This document shows positions 2,661 through 8,194 of a DNA stretch of 18,086 nucleotides, piece after piece. How positions within the stretch are numbered: the first letter of the stretch is position 1; every line of letters starts with the position of its first letter. The position numbers were made by a program, and so were the translations under genes. Source of the stretch: Anaerolineae bacterium (GTDB lineage: Bacteria > Chloroflexota > Anaerolineae > B4-G1 > SLSP01); contig JAFGSL010000203.1 in the NCBI GenBank assembly GCA_016934645.1, positions 1-18,086 on the forward strand, given 5' to 3'. Below the pieces are notes generated by a model. The model saw nothing but the letters and a program-made list of their open reading frames with translations, had not been told where the DNA came from and searched no databases.

Positions 2661-2858
2661 ATGACCTACGTAGTTCGAGGTGAGAACGAATCTTTTGATA
2701 GTTTACTGAAACGGTTCCGCAAGAAGGTGAATCGAGACCGCATTAAGACTGAACTGCGGAAACGGCGTTACTTTGTGACCAAAGGGGAACGCGACCGTAT
2801 AGCAGAGCGCAAGGGAGCCCAAAGAGCACGTCGCCGCCAACGTCGCGCGCGCCGCTGA
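2661..2858 (+). CDS. rpsU: Small ribosomal subunit protein bS21
   Basis: The protein has 65 residues, of ordinary bS21 length. The N-terminal pattern VVRGENESFDSLLKRFRKKV followed by ELRKRRYF and a strongly basic tail (RARRRQRRARR) is characteristic. bS21 sits on the 30S platform near the anti-Shine-Dalgarno end of 16S rRNA and assists initiation. AGGAGG lies at 2651-2656; the ATG at 2661 is preferred because the overlapping ATG at 2658 is only one base from the Shine-Dalgarno. Upstream is a terminator-like hairpin that may control expression. The next gene starts 65 bases downstream in the same direction. Confidence 0.92.
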   Translation: MTYVVRGENESFDSLLKRFRKKVNRDRIKTELRKRRYFVTKGERDRIAERKGAQRARRRQRRARR

Positions 2859-2923
2859 TAGTGTCGACCGGGAATGCGTTTTTCGTTGAGCGTGCATGCA
2901 AACTGACCTAGAGGGATATGCAC

Positions 2924-3220
2924 ATGGCGGATTCAACCGAATATCAACAACTTATTGAGGATTATCCGAAGCTTCAAGATCAGGAACATAGGGAGGCGTT
3001 CGACAAGTTTGTCGCGCGGATGTGGACTAAGCCAACAAGCTTTAATCATTATCTGCGTGCATATTTGGAATTTCTCACCCCTGAGAAACCCACGTTCAGA
3101 AGACTCAATGATCTGGATAACAAGAAGCAACAGGCGAAGCAATCTTCACAACAATCAAGCAAGCGGAGACGTTCTGGCAGAAGGAGCCGACGGTCTCGGA
3201 GTAGACGAAAGGACACGTAG
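2924..3220 (+). CDS. Small protein with acidic/mixed N-terminal part and highly basic C-terminal tail, function unknown
   Basis: The protein has 98 residues from the ATG at 2924, chosen because GAGGG ends eight bases before it; an ATG at 2918 is too close. Residues 1-65 look like a small helical domain (EYQQLIEDYPKLQDQ..., NHYLRAYLEFLTPE). From about residue 68 the chain is Gln/Ser-rich and then almost entirely Arg/Ser/Lys. Such a tail suggests contact with RNA or DNA, and its place directly after rpsU makes a ribosome- or RNA-related role plausible, but that is inference. I do not recognise the family. Codon use and a good ribosome binding site support a real gene. Confidence 0.65.
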   Translation: MADSTEYQQLIEDYPKLQDQEHREAFDKFVARMWTKPTSFNHYLRAYLEFLTPEKPTFRRLNDLDNKKQQAKQSSQQSSKRRRSGRRSRRSRSRRKDT

Positions 3221-3239
3221 CAACAGCACGGCATAGACT

Positions 3240-3267
3240 TTGACAATTCCTCGAAAGTGTATAGAAT
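3240..3267 (+). promoter_or_regulatory. Promoter of the cysteine-cluster/ICMT/TetR operon
   Basis: TTGACA at 3240-3245 and TAGAAT at 3262-3267 are separated by 16 bases. The predicted start near 3274 falls inside the operator at 3272-3285. The first gene begins at 3319. Confidence 0.7.
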
Positions 3268-3271
3268 AATA

Positions 3272-3285
3272 ACTGACCAGTCAGT
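3272..3285. promoter_or_regulatory. TetR-type operator, site 1
   Basis: ACTGACCAGTCAGT is a perfect dyad of two 6-base arms around a 2-base centre and sits on the predicted transcription start. Its core TGACCAGTCA recurs, inverted, at 3772-3781. Short perfect dyads of this kind are usual for TetR/AcrR-family regulators, and the operon ends in a tetR gene, so autorepression is the simplest reading. Confidence 0.7.
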
Positions 3286-3318
3286 CATTTATTTGATAGC
3301 AGGAGGAATGAGAACTCG

Positions 3319-3774
3319 ATGTCCGCGCGATTCCATGGCATTATGAGTCTTACGTTGGTGGCGGTGACAGTGATCATCGCGGCCTTGGTGCTGGCACAGG
3401 TTACCTGTGGATGGGCAGTGGGATACCTTCTGCTCTGTGTGGCAGGGGGAAGTGCCATTCTCTACGCCTGTTGCGCCAAGTGCCCCTGTAAAACCTGTTG
3501 TGAGCATGTACTGCCCGGCAATCTTGCCGGGCAGTTTCCACGTAAACCAGGACCGTATTCTGCCATCGAGCTGGCAGGGGTGATTATCGCTGGGTTGCTG
3601 ATCCTGGGATTACCACAGCTCTGGCTCTGGCGGAGTTTGGTAGCGGGTATCGTTTTCTGGGTATTAAACACCATCGCCTTCGTGCAAATCCTGCTCGGCG
3701 TTTGTAGTGCCTGTGCCAACTCGCATTGCCCGATAGGAAAAATGCGAGCACCCCACGTCGGGCATCAGATGTGA
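3319..3774 (+). CDS. Cysteine-cluster four-helix membrane protein A
   Basis: The protein has 151 residues. Hydrophobic segments at about 8-28, 31-50, 83-100 and 105-127 suggest four membrane helices. Cysteine clusters follow helix 2 (C51, C52, C55, C57, C60, C61, the CCAKCPCKTCC stretch) and helix 4 (C129-x2-C132-x4-C137-P). A PRKPGPYS motif precedes helix 3. Gene B downstream has the same plan, so the two are paralogues. The cysteines could bind metal or an iron-sulfur cluster or take part in thiol chemistry; the sequence cannot decide. AGGAGG at 3301-3306 lies 12 bases before the ATG, which is a little far. The gene is first in the TetR-controlled operon, and its stop codon overlaps operator site 2. 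I know no named family for it. Confidence 0.75.
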   Translation: MSARFHGIMSLTLVAVTVIIAALVLAQVTCGWAVGYLLLCVAGGSAILYACCAKCPCKTCCEHVLPGNLAGQFPRKPGPYSAIELAGVIIAGLLILGLPQLWLWRSLVAGIVFWVLNTIAFVQILLGVCSACANSHCPIGKMRAPHVGHQM

Positions 3775-3781
3775 CTGGTCA
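3772..3781. promoter_or_regulatory. TetR-type operator, site 2
   Basis: TGACTGGTCA is the exact reverse complement of the core of site 1. It overlaps the stop codon of membrane protein A and lies about 30 bases before membrane protein B. It may give a second repressor contact or control a weak internal promoter; TACTAT at 3784-3789 could be a -10 box, but no good -35 box is visible. Confidence 0.5.
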
Positions 3782-3811
3782 TTTACTATTCACCGCTTTT
3801 AGGAGGGTAGA

Positions 3812-4438
3812 ATGTCTGTAGAGTCAGTTGATTCGATACCGTGTAATTTTCGGAGACAAGGGGAGTGTGTAGGTTGCGCTCTTGAGGGCCAGTTGATGTG
3901 TCACTATGATGCGCGTGACACGGTGAAGTTCTTCATGGTGGCGCTGCCCTTTATGGTCACAGGGATCATCGGAGCGATCCAGGCCGGGTATGCTTGGTAT
4001 CTGCTGCTGTGGGTCGCCTATTCGCTGCTCTTTTTCTTCGGCTGGGAGGCGCGGGTATTGTGCAGTCACTGCCCGATGTGGGCGGAGGAAGGGCGCGTGC
4101 TTCACTGTCACGCCAACTACGGCGTGATCAAATTCTGGAAATACCGTCCCGGCCCGATGAGCAAGACCGAGCAGGCTCAGTTCATCATCGGCGCGTTGAT
4201 TTGGATGGGCTTCCCGTTGGTATTGACGCTGCTTGGTGGGGAATATCTATGGGCAGCAGCGGGATTAGTCGCGGCAGTCAGTGCAGCGTACAACCTGCGC
4301 ATCGTCAGTTGCGGGCGCTGCATCAATTTCTCGTGCCCACTGAATACCGTGCCGAAAGCTGAGGTCGATGCCTATCTCCGGCGCAATCCGGCCATGCGCG
4401 AAGCATGGGAATCTGCCGGATACCGGCTAGGAGACTGA
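3812..4438 (+). CDS. Cysteine-cluster four-helix membrane protein B (paralogue of A)
   Basis: The protein has 208 residues with a strong AGGAGG before its ATG. It has an extra N-terminal cysteine cluster (C11, C19, C22, C30). Helices at about 39-58, 61-78, 122-141 and 144-162 follow the same order as in protein A. After helix 2 comes CSHCP (C84, C87) with C99, then YRPGPMS before helix 3, matching PRKPGPYS of protein A. After helix 4 comes C167-x2-C170-x4-C175-P, matching the last cluster of protein A. The C-terminal 30 residues are soluble. Its stop is one base before the next start, so translation is probably coupled. Its function is unknown; a metal, iron-sulfur or thiol role is inferred only from the conserved clusters. 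Confidence 0.77.
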   Translation: MSVESVDSIPCNFRRQGECVGCALEGQLMCHYDARDTVKFFMVALPFMVTGIIGAIQAGYAWYLLLWVAYSLLFFFGWEARVLCSHCPMWAEEGRVLHCHANYGVIKFWKYRPGPMSKTEQAQFIIGALIWMGFPLVLTLLGGEYLWAAAGLVAAVSAAYNLRIVSCGRCINFSCPLNTVPKAEVDAYLRRNPAMREAWESAGYRLGD

Positions 4439-4439
4439 G

Positions 4440-5060
4440 ATGACTCAGGCAACGATAGCTTGGTTGAATTTTGCTGTGTTGGTGTTTTCTTCGATAGCGT
4501 TTTCGATACTGTATGTGCTCAGCGTGCGTCCGGCACACCTGGAACAAAAGATCGGCGAAAAGGCGTACCGGCGTTGTGGACACTATCGTATGGTTGCGAT
4601 GGTCCCGATGGTGGTCGCCAGCCTCAACTACGTGCTGTATCGCTGGTATCCATTGCCCATTGATCCGCTCCCTGCCCGCTTTCCCAGGCCTTACGGGATC
4701 AATGTGACGCTCGCGACCATTATCGGCATTCCGGCGATGGCGCTGATGCTCTGGGGGGTGCGTGACGCGGGGAAAGAGGGGCTGGCTCCTGACAAGTCGC
4801 ACACGATGTACGGCGGCATCTACGAGAAAATCCGCCATCCGCAAGCCGTGGGCGAAGCGCCAATCTGGATTGTGATGGCGTTGTTGATCAATTCACCTTT
4901 CCTAGCTGTTTTCTCCCTGCTCTACCTGGGTGTGTGGTATTGGTGGTGCGTGGAAGAGGAAAAGGATTTGCTCCTGCGTTACGGGCAGGCCTATGCCGGT
5001 TACTGCGCGCGCACGGGGATGCTCTGGCCGAAACGACAGCGGGGTAGTGATGTCTCCTAA
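4440..5060 (+). CDS. Isoprenylcysteine carboxyl methyltransferase / phospholipid methyltransferase-like membrane protein
   Basis: The protein has 206 residues. Hydrophobic segments at about 8-28, 50-68, 88-106 and 140-170 agree with an integral membrane methyltransferase. The C-terminal half carries the ICMT/PEMT signature: GIYEKIRHPQ (127-135), then after a hydrophobic hairpin VEEEKDLLLRYGQAYAGYC (171-189) and a final WP. In this family these residues bind S-adenosylmethionine. Known relatives methylate prenylcysteines, phospholipids or small thiols; which applies here is not visible. GGAG lies before the ATG, one base after gene B ends, and the 3' end overlaps tetR by 11 bases, so it is an integral part of the operon. 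Confidence 0.82.
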   Translation: MTQATIAWLNFAVLVFSSIAFSILYVLSVRPAHLEQKIGEKAYRRCGHYRMVAMVPMVVASLNYVLYRWYPLPIDPLPARFPRPYGINVTLATIIGIPAMALMLWGVRDAGKEGLAPDKSHTMYGGIYEKIRHPQAVGEAPIWIVMALLINSPFLAVFSLLYLGVWYWWCVEEEKDLLLRYGQAYAGYCARTGMLWPKRQRGSDVS

Positions 5061-5655
5061 ACCCGATGTCAGTGAAGAACGCACCGAACAGATCATCGAA
5101 GCGGCCCTCAAGGTCTTCGCCGAACACGGTGTGGAGAAGGCCCGCATGGAGGATATTGGAGACGCTGCCGGGTTGAGCAAAGCCACACTATACCTGTATT
5201 TCAAGACAAAGGATGTGCTCATTGGCGTGATCTTACGGCGGTTGTTCGAGTATATGCTGCATAGTTTTCGATCCCTGGATACAGAAGATGGCTCGGCCCA
5301 GGAGCGACTACGCAGTTTTGCGACGCAATTGGTGGATGAACTGCATCGGATGCGGCCCCTTCTTCCACTGCTCTATGAGTTCTATGCGATGGGGCTGCGC
5401 AAATCTGCCGCGCGTGAGGTATTAGGGGAATTCGTGGCGGAATTTATTGCCATCCTCGCGCCGGTGATACAGCAGGGAGTGGTAAATGGTGAATTGCGCG
5501 CTGTAGATGCCGAAAAATCTGCCATTGCCTTGGGCGCGATGCTCGAAGGAACGCTCCTGCTGTGGGCCTTTGCGCCGGAGCGCGTGGATATGGAAACGCA
5601 GTTGATGTACGGGATGGAGTTGTTCATCCATTCGGTGACGGTTTCGTCGCTTTGA
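5050..5655 (+). CDS. TetR/AcrR-family transcriptional regulator
   Basis: The protein has 201 residues. The N-terminal helix-turn-helix is clear: RTEQIIEAALKVFAEHGVE, MEDIGDAAGLSKATLYLYF, KTKDVLIGV (residues 11-60). The C-terminal ligand-binding domain is diverse, as usual. The ATG at 5050 overlaps the end of the methyltransferase gene by 11 bases; a longer in-frame version from 4930 would lie inside that gene and is rejected. As the last gene of the operon it probably represses it through the two TGAC-N2-GTCA sites at 3272 and 3772. Its 3' end overlaps the convergent 856-residue gene by about 32 bases. Confidence 0.92.
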   Translation: MSPKPDVSEERTEQIIEAALKVFAEHGVEKARMEDIGDAAGLSKATLYLYFKTKDVLIGVILRRLFEYMLHSFRSLDTEDGSAQERLRSFATQLVDELHRMRPLLPLLYEFYAMGLRKSAAREVLGEFVAEFIAILAPVIQQGVVNGELRAVDAEKSAIALGAMLEGTLLLWAFAPERVDMETQLMYGMELFIHSVTVSSL

Positions 5656-8194
5656 TCAACGCAGAAAGGTTCTTCACGAAGCGGTTAAACCCAACGACGT
5701 AACTGTCGAGATAATCCTGCGCCAGATCATCGGCGAGAGAGGCCGCATCCGCGACGTACAACAAGGGGACGAAGGGGCGAAAGTCACGCAGGCTGATGTG
5801 CATTGTCCCGTCGTCATCACTCAAGATACCCCACACCAATTCCTTCGTCGCGCCGTCGTCTTTGGCGCTTAGAAAGCGGTGTGGGCTGGTGTGCGGCGCG
5901 ACGCACCCCAGATTGGAGAAAACTTCGCTGCCTTTGATGACCTCATTCAAGACCCCGATGCGCTGTGGAATCTGGTCGAGGATGTGCTGTATGGAAGGTG
6001 GTAGATGTCCCAGGAGGCGCAGCGTGGCGGTGTTGAAGCTCTCCCCGCGCATCGTGACGGCCTTCAGTGTGTCCAGGAATTCCCCAAAGGCTTTGAGATG
6101 CGCCAGGAACGCGCGCCGTGCCTCGTCGAATTTACCCCAACTGGCTACATTCTGTTCCAGACGATAGCGTAGATACTGTTCCTGGACTTCGTCGAACAAA
6201 GGCATAATCGTAGGTAGTGGGTTGCGGAAGGTGGTGGGGAACAAGCGCGCCTTCGGGGCAACATGGCTGGCGTCCATTGGGATAAGCAGTGCGGGATTGG
6301 TCTCGCGGTCGTGAGCCAGGGTTTGGGTGATACTCTCCTGGATGGTACGGCATTGTTTGGTGTCTAGCCGCTTCCCCAAATCATCCAGTTCTTGCTGGAT
6401 GGAGGCCGAAAGCGAATAGGTCGAAGCGTGGAAGCCCCGGTAAAGCAGCAGCAAATCGTTGACGGTGAGGTGAACCCCGCGTTGATCGAGCCATGTGCGC
6501 AATCGCGTCAGAGTCCTGGTATTGATGGCCGTGGACTCGGCGGCGGCTTCGCGCGGGAGCGCGTTTTTGCCGGCCATGACGACGACTTCCGGTGTGCCGA
6601 GCAGCGCCAGCGGCGTGACGGTGAGCGGTTCAGAGGGCGCGGAGTGTTTCACGAACCGGCGGTAGGCGTGAACCGCGCTATCGGTCACAATCTCAGCCAC
6701 TGCCATCCCCCACATTCCATCGAAGAAGATGTGCGACTGGTCGAATATCGTGCTTTCGGGTGTGCGGAAAATCGTGAGGGCGTGATCGCCGACGCCGCGC
6801 CGGTTGCGCCGGATGTGCGCCAATGGCTGCTCGTTGGAGCTTACGTCCCAGTTGATGAGGACGGGAGCGCGGCACAGGCGTCCGAGGACCTTTTGGGTCG
6901 CCGGAGGAAGTTTGTTGCGCAGTTGGGATTGCATAGCGCGTGGGATTTCGGCCAGCACAAGGTCGAGGTCGGCGGCTTTAGCGCGTGGCGCGTTGAAAAC
7001 GCCAGCGACCCACGCCAGGATTGTGTCTGGTGTGGGCGGGCGGAGTGTTCCTAGCACTTGTTTGCTCTCACGATACCATACGCGCCCGCCCCGGTCGGAG
7101 TCCAGCGCTACGCCCTCAGCATCGCACAAAGTGCCGTTGCGGTTGGCGTACAGTGGAATGGGCACGTCATCCGACGCGCCGTCAGGCGGGTAGCAGAGCG
7201 GGCTTCCGGCGCTGTTGCGCTGGCAAACGGGTAACAGGTACGTCTGCCCCTGCCAGATGAAGCCGACAAAGGCCCGCGACAGTGTGTAATACGTTTTATG
7301 TTCCTTGTGCGTTTCCGGCGTCAGTGCAGTGAGGAGCGTCATCTGCTCTACATAAGATGGCAATTCGTCCCGACAACGTGCGTCGAAGCGTTCGTGGACG
7401 CGGGCTTGCGCGGCACGGTTGAGTGCGGCTATGCGCGCCTGGATGAACCGTTCGAAGGTTTCCAGGCGGTGACGGAGATAGTCACTGTCATCGCTGGGCG
7501 CGTGATAGGGGCGCGCCGCGTTCCAGTCACGCCAAAGTGTGGCGAGGGGAGGGCGTTGGTTCATCCTGGTCTCTATGGCTTCTTCTTGCACTAACCGCAG
7601 TAGCACGTGTTCGCGCCAGTCGGTGCGCAGCAGATCGTCATATGTGTAAAGAAGCTGCAACGCGGCGCTGACCCACGCGGCGGCTTCGCCGACTTGGTCG
7701 CGTGGCGCGGGGATTGCGCGTTGGAAGCCTATGGTCTCGTGGGTGTGGTGTGCCGTATCCTCGCGCAGGCCAAACTCCAGATAGAACTGCCACGTCCCTT
7801 GCGGGAACGCGCTCTCCGTATCCTTGCCTGCCAGTTGCAGGAGCTTTTGATAGGCATAAAGCAGGGCCGCCGGACCGCCGATAACGACGCCGAACAGGCC
7901 CTGAGGGAGCAACTCCAGGCTGCGCAACAGGGCTGTGATGTCCTGCCGCACCCGCTCGGCATTGATTTTGCGCCCCTTGAGCTGCATCAAGCCGTTGAGG
8001 ATGAAGGCCGGAAGGTTGCCGGCGGGCAAAACTTGCGCGATTTCCTGTTGGATCTCGCGGATTTCCGGCAGCGTTAAGCGCGTAAGCCTTTGTAGGGTGT
8101 CCTCATCGATCTGCGACAGCGCCGCGAGCGTGGCATCCTTGGCGCGGGTCAACGTCTCTAGTTGTTCTTGCGTGATACGTCCTTTAGCTGTCAT
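5624..8194 (-). CDS. Large cytoplasmic protein of unknown function (856 residues)
   Basis: The product has no signal peptide or clear membrane helix. Residues 10-120 are helical and rich in Leu, Gln and Glu. A conserved-looking segment YLEFGLREDTAHHTHETIGFQ lies at about 138-158. A beta-rich part follows at 305-380 (YYTLSRAFVGFIWQGQTYLLPV). Around 446-512 is INWDVSSNEQPLAHI..., then SHIFFDGMWGMAVAEI with H488 and D492-G493, an HxxxDG arrangement like that of some CoA-dependent acyltransferases; I regard this only as a hint. The C-terminal third is helical. The ribosome binding site is weak (GGATAACGT before the ATG). It follows the kinase gene in the same direction across a heptamer array, so it may be co-transcribed with it. 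Its 3' end overlaps tetR on the other strand. I do not recognise a named family. Confidence 0.75.
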   Translation of the reverse strand: MTAKGRITQEQLETLTRAKDATLAALSQIDEDTLQRLTRLTLPEIREIQQEIAQVLPAGNLPAFILNGLMQLKGRKINAERVRQDITALLRSLELLPQGLFGVVIGGPAALLYAYQKLLQLAGKDTESAFPQGTWQFYLEFGLREDTAHHTHETIGFQRAIPAPRDQVGEAAAWVSAALQLLYTYDDLLRTDWREHVLLRLVQEEAIETRMNQRPPLATLWRDWNAARPYHAPSDDSDYLRHRLETFERFIQARIAALNRAAQARVHERFDARCRDELPSYVEQMTLLTALTPETHKEHKTYYTLSRAFVGFIWQGQTYLLPVCQRNSAGSPLCYPPDGASDDVPIPLYANRNGTLCDAEGVALDSDRGGRVWYRESKQVLGTLRPPTPDTILAWVAGVFNAPRAKAADLDLVLAEIPRAMQSQLRNKLPPATQKVLGRLCRAPVLINWDVSSNEQPLAHIRRNRRGVGDHALTIFRTPESTIFDQSHIFFDGMWGMAVAEIVTDSAVHAYRRFVKHSAPSEPLTVTPLALLGTPEVVVMAGKNALPREAAAESTAINTRTLTRLRTWLDQRGVHLTVNDLLLLYRGFHASTYSLSASIQQELDDLGKRLDTKQCRTIQESITQTLAHDRETNPALLIPMDASHVAPKARLFPTTFRNPLPTIMPLFDEVQEQYLRYRLEQNVASWGKFDEARRAFLAHLKAFGEFLDTLKAVTMRGESFNTATLRLLGHLPPSIQHILDQIPQRIGVLNEVIKGSEVFSNLGCVAPHTSPHRFLSAKDDGATKELVWGILSDDDGTMHISLRDFRPFVPLLYVADAASLADDLAQDYLDSYVVGFNRFVKNLSALIKATKPSPNG

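Follow-up and report, generated by a model that had tools for sequence, protein, structure and literature searches.

A predicted TetR-controlled operon encoding two related cysteine-cluster membrane proteins and a membrane methyltransferase in an Anaerolineae bacterium

Four genes of an Anaerolineae bacterium, termed here A, B, M and T, form a compact operon in contig JAFGSL010000203.1, of which the whole analysed stretch of 18,086 nucleotides is referred to as the window. They encode two related four-helix membrane proteins with conserved cysteine clusters (A and B), a membrane methyltransferase of the ICMT/PEMT superfamily (M) and a TetR-family repressor (T), and lie behind a promoter and operator-like palindrome whose layout recurs before related operons. 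Our preferred reading, to which we assign a probability of about 0.42, is that of a detoxification operon, repressed by TetR and induced by a toxin, in which A and B would be metal proteins of the membrane, probably of the iron-sulfur kind, that face the cytosol and perform redox work on a lipophilic compound. The induction part of this reading taken alone is very probable; the chemistry proposed for A and B is a guess. Comparison loci are labelled L001 and so on, and genomes G001 and so on. The features of the operon are as follows.

3240-3267, + strand: sigma-70-type promoter (TTGACA 3240-3245, 16-base spacer, TAGAAT 3262-3267), 11 of 12 consensus matches
3272-3285, no strand assigned: operator-like palindrome ACTGAC-CA-GTCAGT, presumed T site, 4 bases 3' of the -10 box
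about 3301-3306, + strand: putative ribosome-binding site of A, by eye
3319-3774, + strand: gene A, 151 residues, four-helix cysteine-cluster membrane protein
3812-4438, + strand: gene B, 208 residues, four-helix cysteine-cluster membrane protein
4440-5060, + strand: gene M, 206 residues, ICMT/PEMT-superfamily membrane methyltransferase
5050-5655, + strand: gene T, 201 residues from ATG 5050, TetR-family repressor, last gene of the operon

A sequence-only reading of this DNA had described four tightly packed genes for two four-helix membrane proteins with a PGP motif before helix 3 and a C-x2-C-x4-CP tail, an ICMT/PEMT-type methyltransferase and a TetR regulator controlling the whole, and each of these elements was recovered. 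The open reading frame coordinates give a 37-base gap between A and B, a single base between B and M and an 11-base overlap of M with T, all on one strand (for T we take ATG 5050, where a program-made list of open reading frames begins at GTG 4930); both tail and PGP motifs are present in the sequences; and M and T exceed the curated Pfam cut-offs of their families (PF04191 and PF00440, respectively). Control by TetR is supported by the predicted operator at the promoter, which recurs before seven related operons. The gene order A-B-M-T is repeated in L001, against which the ratio of nonsynonymous to synonymous substitution rates is about 0.19 for A, 0.11 for B, 0.12 for M and 0.08 for T. Given this order and these values, the grouping is more than chance. 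It was also observed that A shares only 59% identity with its L001 counterpart (L001:5428-5901), whereas B, M and T share 82-84%; A thus evolves faster or was exchanged.

T matched PF00440 (TetR_N) at 55.9 bits against a cut-off of 24, and PF13977 at 43.9 bits. The region holds two promoter-like sites where shuffled sequences would yield 2.1, so that the weight of the promoter rests on its recurrence before related operons. The palindrome at 3272-3285 has 0 mismatches to ACTGACCRGTCAGT, while shuffles average 0.17 matches at up to 2 mismatches. Promoter and palindrome are arranged in like manner before L001, L002, L005, L008, L017, L028 and L075; there the two hexamers together carry 0-3 mismatches and the palindrome begins 2-7 bases after the -10 box. 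The first gene behind this layout is A in L001, M in L002 (with a second palindrome upstream), T in L005, L028 and L075, a small gene followed by T in L008, and an A-type gene in L017. Because the same layout stands before these seven operons, autoregulation by T is a well-supported prediction. Seven perfect consensus sites were found in six genomes, six of them just 5' of a B-locus operon and one before another TetR gene. Sites with at most one mismatch number 0-3 per genome and do not exceed a reversed-pattern control (1-12); only the placement of the perfect sites therefore carries weight. The operator of G001 itself has 2 mismatches and was missed by the genome-wide search. No palindrome precedes the operon of L126, in which an A-type gene of the group designated A' is followed by T and ABC-2 genes, but that contig extends no more than 102 bases upstream. 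Another palindrome, the shorter TGAC-TG-GTCA at 3772-3781, is located in the A-B gap, overlaps the stop codon of A and could be a weak T site.

A profile built from eight T proteins matched 100 of 298 genomes at E ≤ 1e-30, these genomes representing one class, that of G001. At the best 30 loci of this T group an exporter component lay within 1.5 kb in 23 cases (an ABC-2, MacB or HlyD gene in 15, an ABC ATPase only in 8), and a loose form of the palindrome was present at 25 of the 30; in 100 controls with shuffled bases the mean was 0.73 and the maximum 4. A, A' or B occurred at three of them. T thus belongs to an exporter-linked repressor group, and the window operon is a variant with A, B and M as its effectors. 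Induction by a toxic or reactive compound, as the sequence-only reading had proposed, is plausible in view of these exporter components; its companion proposal of thiol or metal handling is taken up below.

The cysteine motifs of A and B were assessed for conservation. For A, 24 sequences were compared. For B, two sets were used: one of 40 sequences, comprising the window protein and 39 bacterial and archaeal relatives with truncated, fused and divergent members kept, and one of 38 chosen without truncated and fused members.

3472-3507, + strand: A, motif after helix 2, C52-x2-C55-P-x4-C61-x-H63; C52, C55, C61 and H63 invariant in 24 sequences
3541-3561, + strand: A, R-K-P-G-P-Y-S before helix 3; R75, P79 and Y80 invariant and G78 nearly so in 24 sequences
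3703-3732, + strand: A, motif after helix 4, C129-x2-C132-x-N-x2-C137-P; C129, C132, C137 and P138 invariant in 24 sequences
3842-3901, + strand: B, N-terminal motif C11-x7-C19-x2-C22-x7-C30; in the 38 sequences C22 and C30 invariant, C11 and C19 at least 90%
4061-4111, + strand: B, motif after helix 2, C84-x-H86-C87-P88-x10-C99-H100; in the 40 sequences C84, H86 and C87 kept in 40, C99 in 38 (the two exceptions broken or cut off), H100 in only 16
4145-4162, + strand: B, R-P-G-P-M-S before helix 3; P115 invariant, P113 and M116 nearly so in 38 sequences
4310-4339, + strand: B, motif after helix 4, C167-x-R-C170-x-N-F-S-C175-P176; in the 40 sequences C167 kept in 37, C170 and C175 in 38 (exceptions are cut-off or unreadable rows)

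Poorly conserved cysteines had been named beforehand as a result that would speak against the sequence-only reading; the cysteines held in both families. The N-terminal cysteines of B are kept less often in the 40-sequence set (C11 and C19 in 28, C22 in 29, C30 in 30), several rows of which are truncated, and the N-terminal cluster is missing from L015 and from four archaeal members fused to an Rce1-like protease. The clusters that follow helix 2 and helix 4 are near-invariant, and the N-terminal one is absent from these members; the former are therefore taken as the core and the latter as an addition of B. Lysine and arginine residues of B number 2 in the N-terminus, 0 in loop 1, 4 in loop 2, 0 in loop 3 and 6 in the C-terminus; this distribution would place both ends and the loop between helices 2 and 3 in the cytosol, and hence all clusters of B on one, cytosolic, face. 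From the conservation of ligand-type residues it is likely that the clusters of A and B hold a metal centre, which is more probably iron-sulfur than zinc.

Structure prediction for B gave four long helices in both of two models. The mean predicted local distance difference test score was 72.8 for the first model and 89.1 for the deeper one, an AlphaFold model with a predicted template modelling score of 0.82 and helices at 34-57, 63-82, 118-141 and 145-167. Structure models cover B; the helices of A were assigned from hydropathy and homology to B. Comparison of the A and B profiles gave a probability of 93.9% (E 1.6e-7) over an alignment running from the cysteines after helix 2 to the tail, and a profile of A retrieved B proteins in other genomes. 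On these two grounds A and B are read as remote homologues, apparently diverged copies of one architecture: two helices, a cysteine cluster, two helices, a cysteine cluster. Neither matched an NCBIfam family at E ≤ 1. A matched no Pfam family, and for B the sole hit was a hantavirus glycoprotein model below cut-off (16.3 bits against 28.5); scans of 38 B and 24 A relatives returned scattered weak matches only. The B models found no solid match in the PDB, and the deeper one no Foldseek match at E ≤ 0.001, which is no proof of a new fold; the sequence profiles of A and B likewise identified no solved relative of weight. B has 349 database relatives at E ≤ 0.001 and a combined A-type profile 177 matches; members of the family were seen in Chloroflexota, several other bacterial groups, Hermodarchaeota, Thorarchaeota and methanogen-related archaea.

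M matched PF04191 (PEMT) at 29 bits against a cut-off of 25, over residues 99-182, and PF04140 (ICMT) at 14.7 bits, under its cut-off of 24; the solved relative 4a2n aligned with residues 122-198 (E 3.1e-06). The motifs RHPQ and EE.DL..RYG..Y..Y are invariant in five M orthologues. Two more specific assignments were rejected: protein-S-isoprenylcysteine O-methyltransferase (NF040696, 37 bits against an equivalog cut-off of 160) and the methanethiol S-methyltransferase MddA (NF045656, 15.9 bits against an equivalog cut-off of 270).

We next considered the genomic company of B at 51 loci, being 39 of the 40 of the first set, 11 of the 12 of a second and one of the two from a phylum-wide draw. 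Three candidates were left out: L040, where a profile did not confirm B, and the weak matches L081 and L100, which contain two stops and one stop, respectively. A TetR gene lay within 3 kb of B at 10 loci and beyond 3 kb at none (266 versus 219 kb examined). Exporter parts of the ABC-2, MacB or HlyD type lay within 3 kb at six loci and beyond at one; ICMT-type genes within 3 kb at four (one generic) and beyond at three, one of which is L002, whose true M shares an operon with B at a distance of 3.9 kb; and A or A-type genes within 3 kb at two. All of these nearer neighbours are on the strand of B. True M orthologues accompany B at L001, L002, L005 and L080, three of them within 3 kb, whereas L010 and L017 have generic ICMT-type genes that score 37 bits to an M profile whose four source orthologues score 362-381. 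Among ICMT-type neighbours only strict M orthologues carry weight. The recurring arrangements, in which x is another gene, are:

L002: M-x-T-ABC2-ABC2-B
L005: T-B-x-M-F420H2-quinone-reductase type
L008: x-T-ABC2-B-ABC2-TetR
L017: A'-T-B, then HlyD and MacB types
L028: T-B-HlyD-MacB
L073: T-ATPase-ABC2-B-ABC2-ATPase
L075: T-B-flavodoxin/ferredoxin-ABC2
L080: B-M
L126 (no B seen): A'-T-ABC2-ABC2-TetR

Their theme is a TetR regulator of the exporter-linked group together with a four-helix cysteine protein, combined with ABC-2/MacB-type exporters, with M or, at one locus, with a flavodoxin/ferredoxin protein. The last (L075:1681-2466, - strand) carries a flavodoxin and two 4Fe-4S stretches and stands directly after T-B, before an ABC-2 gene. 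Further redox neighbours of B are an F420H2-quinone-reductase family protein in L005 and a nitroreductase in L025. In Hermodarchaeota, B is fused to an Rce1-like membrane protease in L019, L020, L022 and L024 and follows one in L011 and L012. Elsewhere in the family, FeoB lies near two related B genes (L038 and L039), a cysteine-rich DUF3795 gene close to an A-type or B gene in L009, L131, L133 and L137, and a heliorhodopsin gene (L016:7036-7797) downstream of B in a genome labelled Dehalococcoidia.

The sequence-only reading had treated A, B and M as one fixed system, and here it failed: homologues are largely scattered without each other or without an ICMT gene. A fixed four-gene system was rejected, with A in one of the 298 genomes, B in 16 (G069 unconfirmed by profile) and true M at four of the 51 B loci. 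A narrow A profile gave a second match, in G208, that is the B of that genome; a wider profile matched six genomes, retrieving A of G001, B of G143, G208, G219 and G224, and A' of G058. The A' group has 14 solid members among the 298 genomes, two matches at E of about 1e-3 having been dropped. Two genomes, G001 and G097, have both B and A', each time on separate contigs; chance would give about 0.75 such genomes. Among 400 genomes drawn phylum-wide B was found in five, three of them already known and G610 a weak match with a stop. The M subfamily (at least 270 bits) was detected in two of 90 genomes. In G001 the gene stands at the B locus; in G024, for which no B was found, it lies at the end of a contig. 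Four further genomes of the 90 gave generic matches of 44-59 bits.

How such an operon might operate can be outlined as follows. T would sit on the palindrome just 3' of the -10 box, blocking transcription, and would release the DNA upon binding a toxic, probably lipophilic, small molecule. Once induced, the operon would supply A, B and M. The cytosolic clusters of A and B most likely hold a metal centre, iron-sulfur rather than zinc, and the two proteins would probably pass electrons from a soluble donor to the compound or to quinone in the membrane; M might then methylate the same or a resulting hydrophobic thiol, acid or hydroxyl. We infer the metal binding, the redox role, the substrate of M and the identity of the inducer in this outline, that the centre is redox-active being suggested by the single redox neighbours in L075, L005 and L025.

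Several observations weigh against the detoxification reading. B and A' show no significant co-occurrence in the 298 genomes. At 41 of the 51 B loci (some on short contigs) TetR is missing within 3 kb, and at 45, including L001, an exporter part is; loose ICMT-type matches are nearly as common beyond 3 kb as within it. Archaeal B genes stand in different surroundings and this, with the 41 loci lacking a near TetR, indicates that detoxification is not the whole job of the B family. Each kind of redox neighbour occurs once, amid many unrelated genes, no known redox or iron-sulfur family was detected by Pfam in A, B or their relatives, and zinc binding would produce identical conservation. In the window, the gene 3' of T is unrelated by Pfam.

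Zinc also enters an alternative that we consider doubtful. Here the metal, zinc or another, has a structural role in A and B, which transfer no electrons but assist membrane complexes, ABC-2/MacB-type exporters for example, as accessory or assembly subunits. Pairs of C-x2-C with histidine are common zinc ligands, the fold of B is confidently predicted, and exporter parts lie near B on the same strand at the six loci given above; the other 45, L001 included, lack such an exporter, and the flavodoxin/ferredoxin and F420-type neighbours would be left unexplained. It is improbable that a thiol-reactive metal or electrophile is instead what the clusters bind at the membrane, with M acting as a thiol methyltransferase and T as the sensor. 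The many cysteines on one face, the distant likeness of M to methanethiol S-methyltransferase and ICMT and the FeoB genes of L038 and L039 are consistent with this, but the 15.9 bits to NF045656 fall far under the cut-off, no metal-efflux ATPase, MerR or ArsR was present among the 59 neighbours at B and A-type loci that were scanned with Pfam (a subset of the total), and relatives of T accompany ABC-type exporters. The thiol or metal handling of the sequence-only reading is not separable from redox work with these data, and the single neighbours lean towards redox.

The fusions and adjacencies of B with Rce1-like proteases, all in Hermodarchaeota, together with the four loci where B is near true M orthologues, raise the idea of post-translational lipid processing, in which M acts as ICMT and B partners CAAX-type enzymes. 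However, a C-terminal CaaX is missing (A ends GHQM and B RLGD), most of the abundant Rce1-like proteins are not CAAX proteases, and the 37 bits of M are well below the ICMT equivalog cut-off; we regard this as scarcely probable. Coincidental grouping, with B a house-keeping family and the TetR operons accidental neighbourhoods, is very unlikely. The neighbours of B do differ widely among lineages and the 51 loci are not independent: L019/L020/L022/L024, L011/L012, L018/L021 and L029/L030 look like close relatives by gene order, and L013 and L038 belong to one assembly. Nevertheless, TetR occurs at 10 loci within 3 kb and at none beyond, the near matches are all on the strand of B, and eight operons have the operator layout in common. 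A mobile or phage element was rejected, as no relatives of A or B were found in viral contigs and none of B in plasmids (searched with B only); anti-phage defence was likewise rejected, PADLOC returning 0 families for A, B, M and T at E ≤ 0.01. No RNA element was found in 2800-6000.

The shared operator offers a handle, since identifying the inducer of T would show on what the operon works. The B and A-type families combine a strict cysteine signature with scores below every Pfam cut-off in the scans made and no clear solved-fold match. If their centre is redox-active, they would constitute a simple membrane electron-transfer unit distinct from NapH/NosR, and the operon would exemplify a branch without export in a repressor group whose members otherwise stand beside exporters. 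A broader proposal, which we rate as rather unlikely, is that A and B define a new superfamily of minimal membrane redox proteins of bacteria and archaea, with four helices, cytosol-facing iron-sulfur or other metal centres and no known fold relative. They would serve as an inducible reductase of the membrane, either alongside drug exporters or replacing them, and also as a domain on proteases, which are of the Rce1-like kind in Hermodarchaeota and of the LonB-like kind in a single genome from the class of G001.

Upstream of the operon, the window encodes an 84-residue protein (2604-2858) whose ribosomal S21 domain (35.9 bits, Pfam) follows what by eye is a likely membrane helix; the adjacent 100-residue protein (2918-3220) is very basic. 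Downstream, an 856-residue protein (5624-8194, - strand) overlaps the end of T tail-to-tail by 32 bases; it has no Pfam match above cut-off, and stretches of it resemble carnitine acyltransferases by eye.

Comparison with known systems places the operon closest, in its control, to TetR-controlled ABC-2/MacB-type exporter operons, with which it shares the repressor group and a like palindrome near the promoter, while differing in having A, B and M as effectors and no exporter gene. The LonB-like protease of L138 (L138:2703-5648, - strand) bears a four-helix cysteine domain like A fused at its C-terminus, in a different enzyme context with no TetR or M match within the 3.8 kb covered. M shares the C-terminal catalytic region of the ICMT/PEMT superfamily (4a2n), with RHPx and EE.DL..RYG..Y..Y, but aligns over the two C-terminal stretches given above only and falls far under the ICMT equivalog cut-off. 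A description of this operon or family was not among the top-ranked open-access PubMed Central (PMC) results, which is no proof of absence. A passage of PMC10434189 places ICMT-family genes, a flavodoxin and a TetR/ABC locus among the iron-starvation genes of two Bacteroidetes, at separate loci; we take this as a lead only.

The nearest mechanistic parallel is the NapH/NosR/RdhC (PceC) module, described in a passage of PMC5928378 as four membrane segments with two cysteine-proline motifs, CX3CP. B has four membrane segments in both models and, as in the module so described, the motifs of A and B are two, following helix 2 and helix 4 on one face. Their spacing, however, is C-x-H-C-P or C-x2-C-P and C-x2-C-x4-C-P rather than CX3CP. 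Neither the C-terminal 2[4Fe-4S] motifs of NapH and NosR nor the flavin mononucleotide (FMN) domain of RdhC and NosR was found as a Pfam domain at E ≤ 1 in A, B, 38 B relatives or 24 A relatives, and the B profile matched one E. coli NapH sequence with a probability of 1.8% (NosR and RdhC lay outside this comparison). Because motif spacing, ferredoxin or FMN domains and detectable similarity to NapH are all missing, A and B appear, on the tests made, not to be members of this module, though they may work like one.

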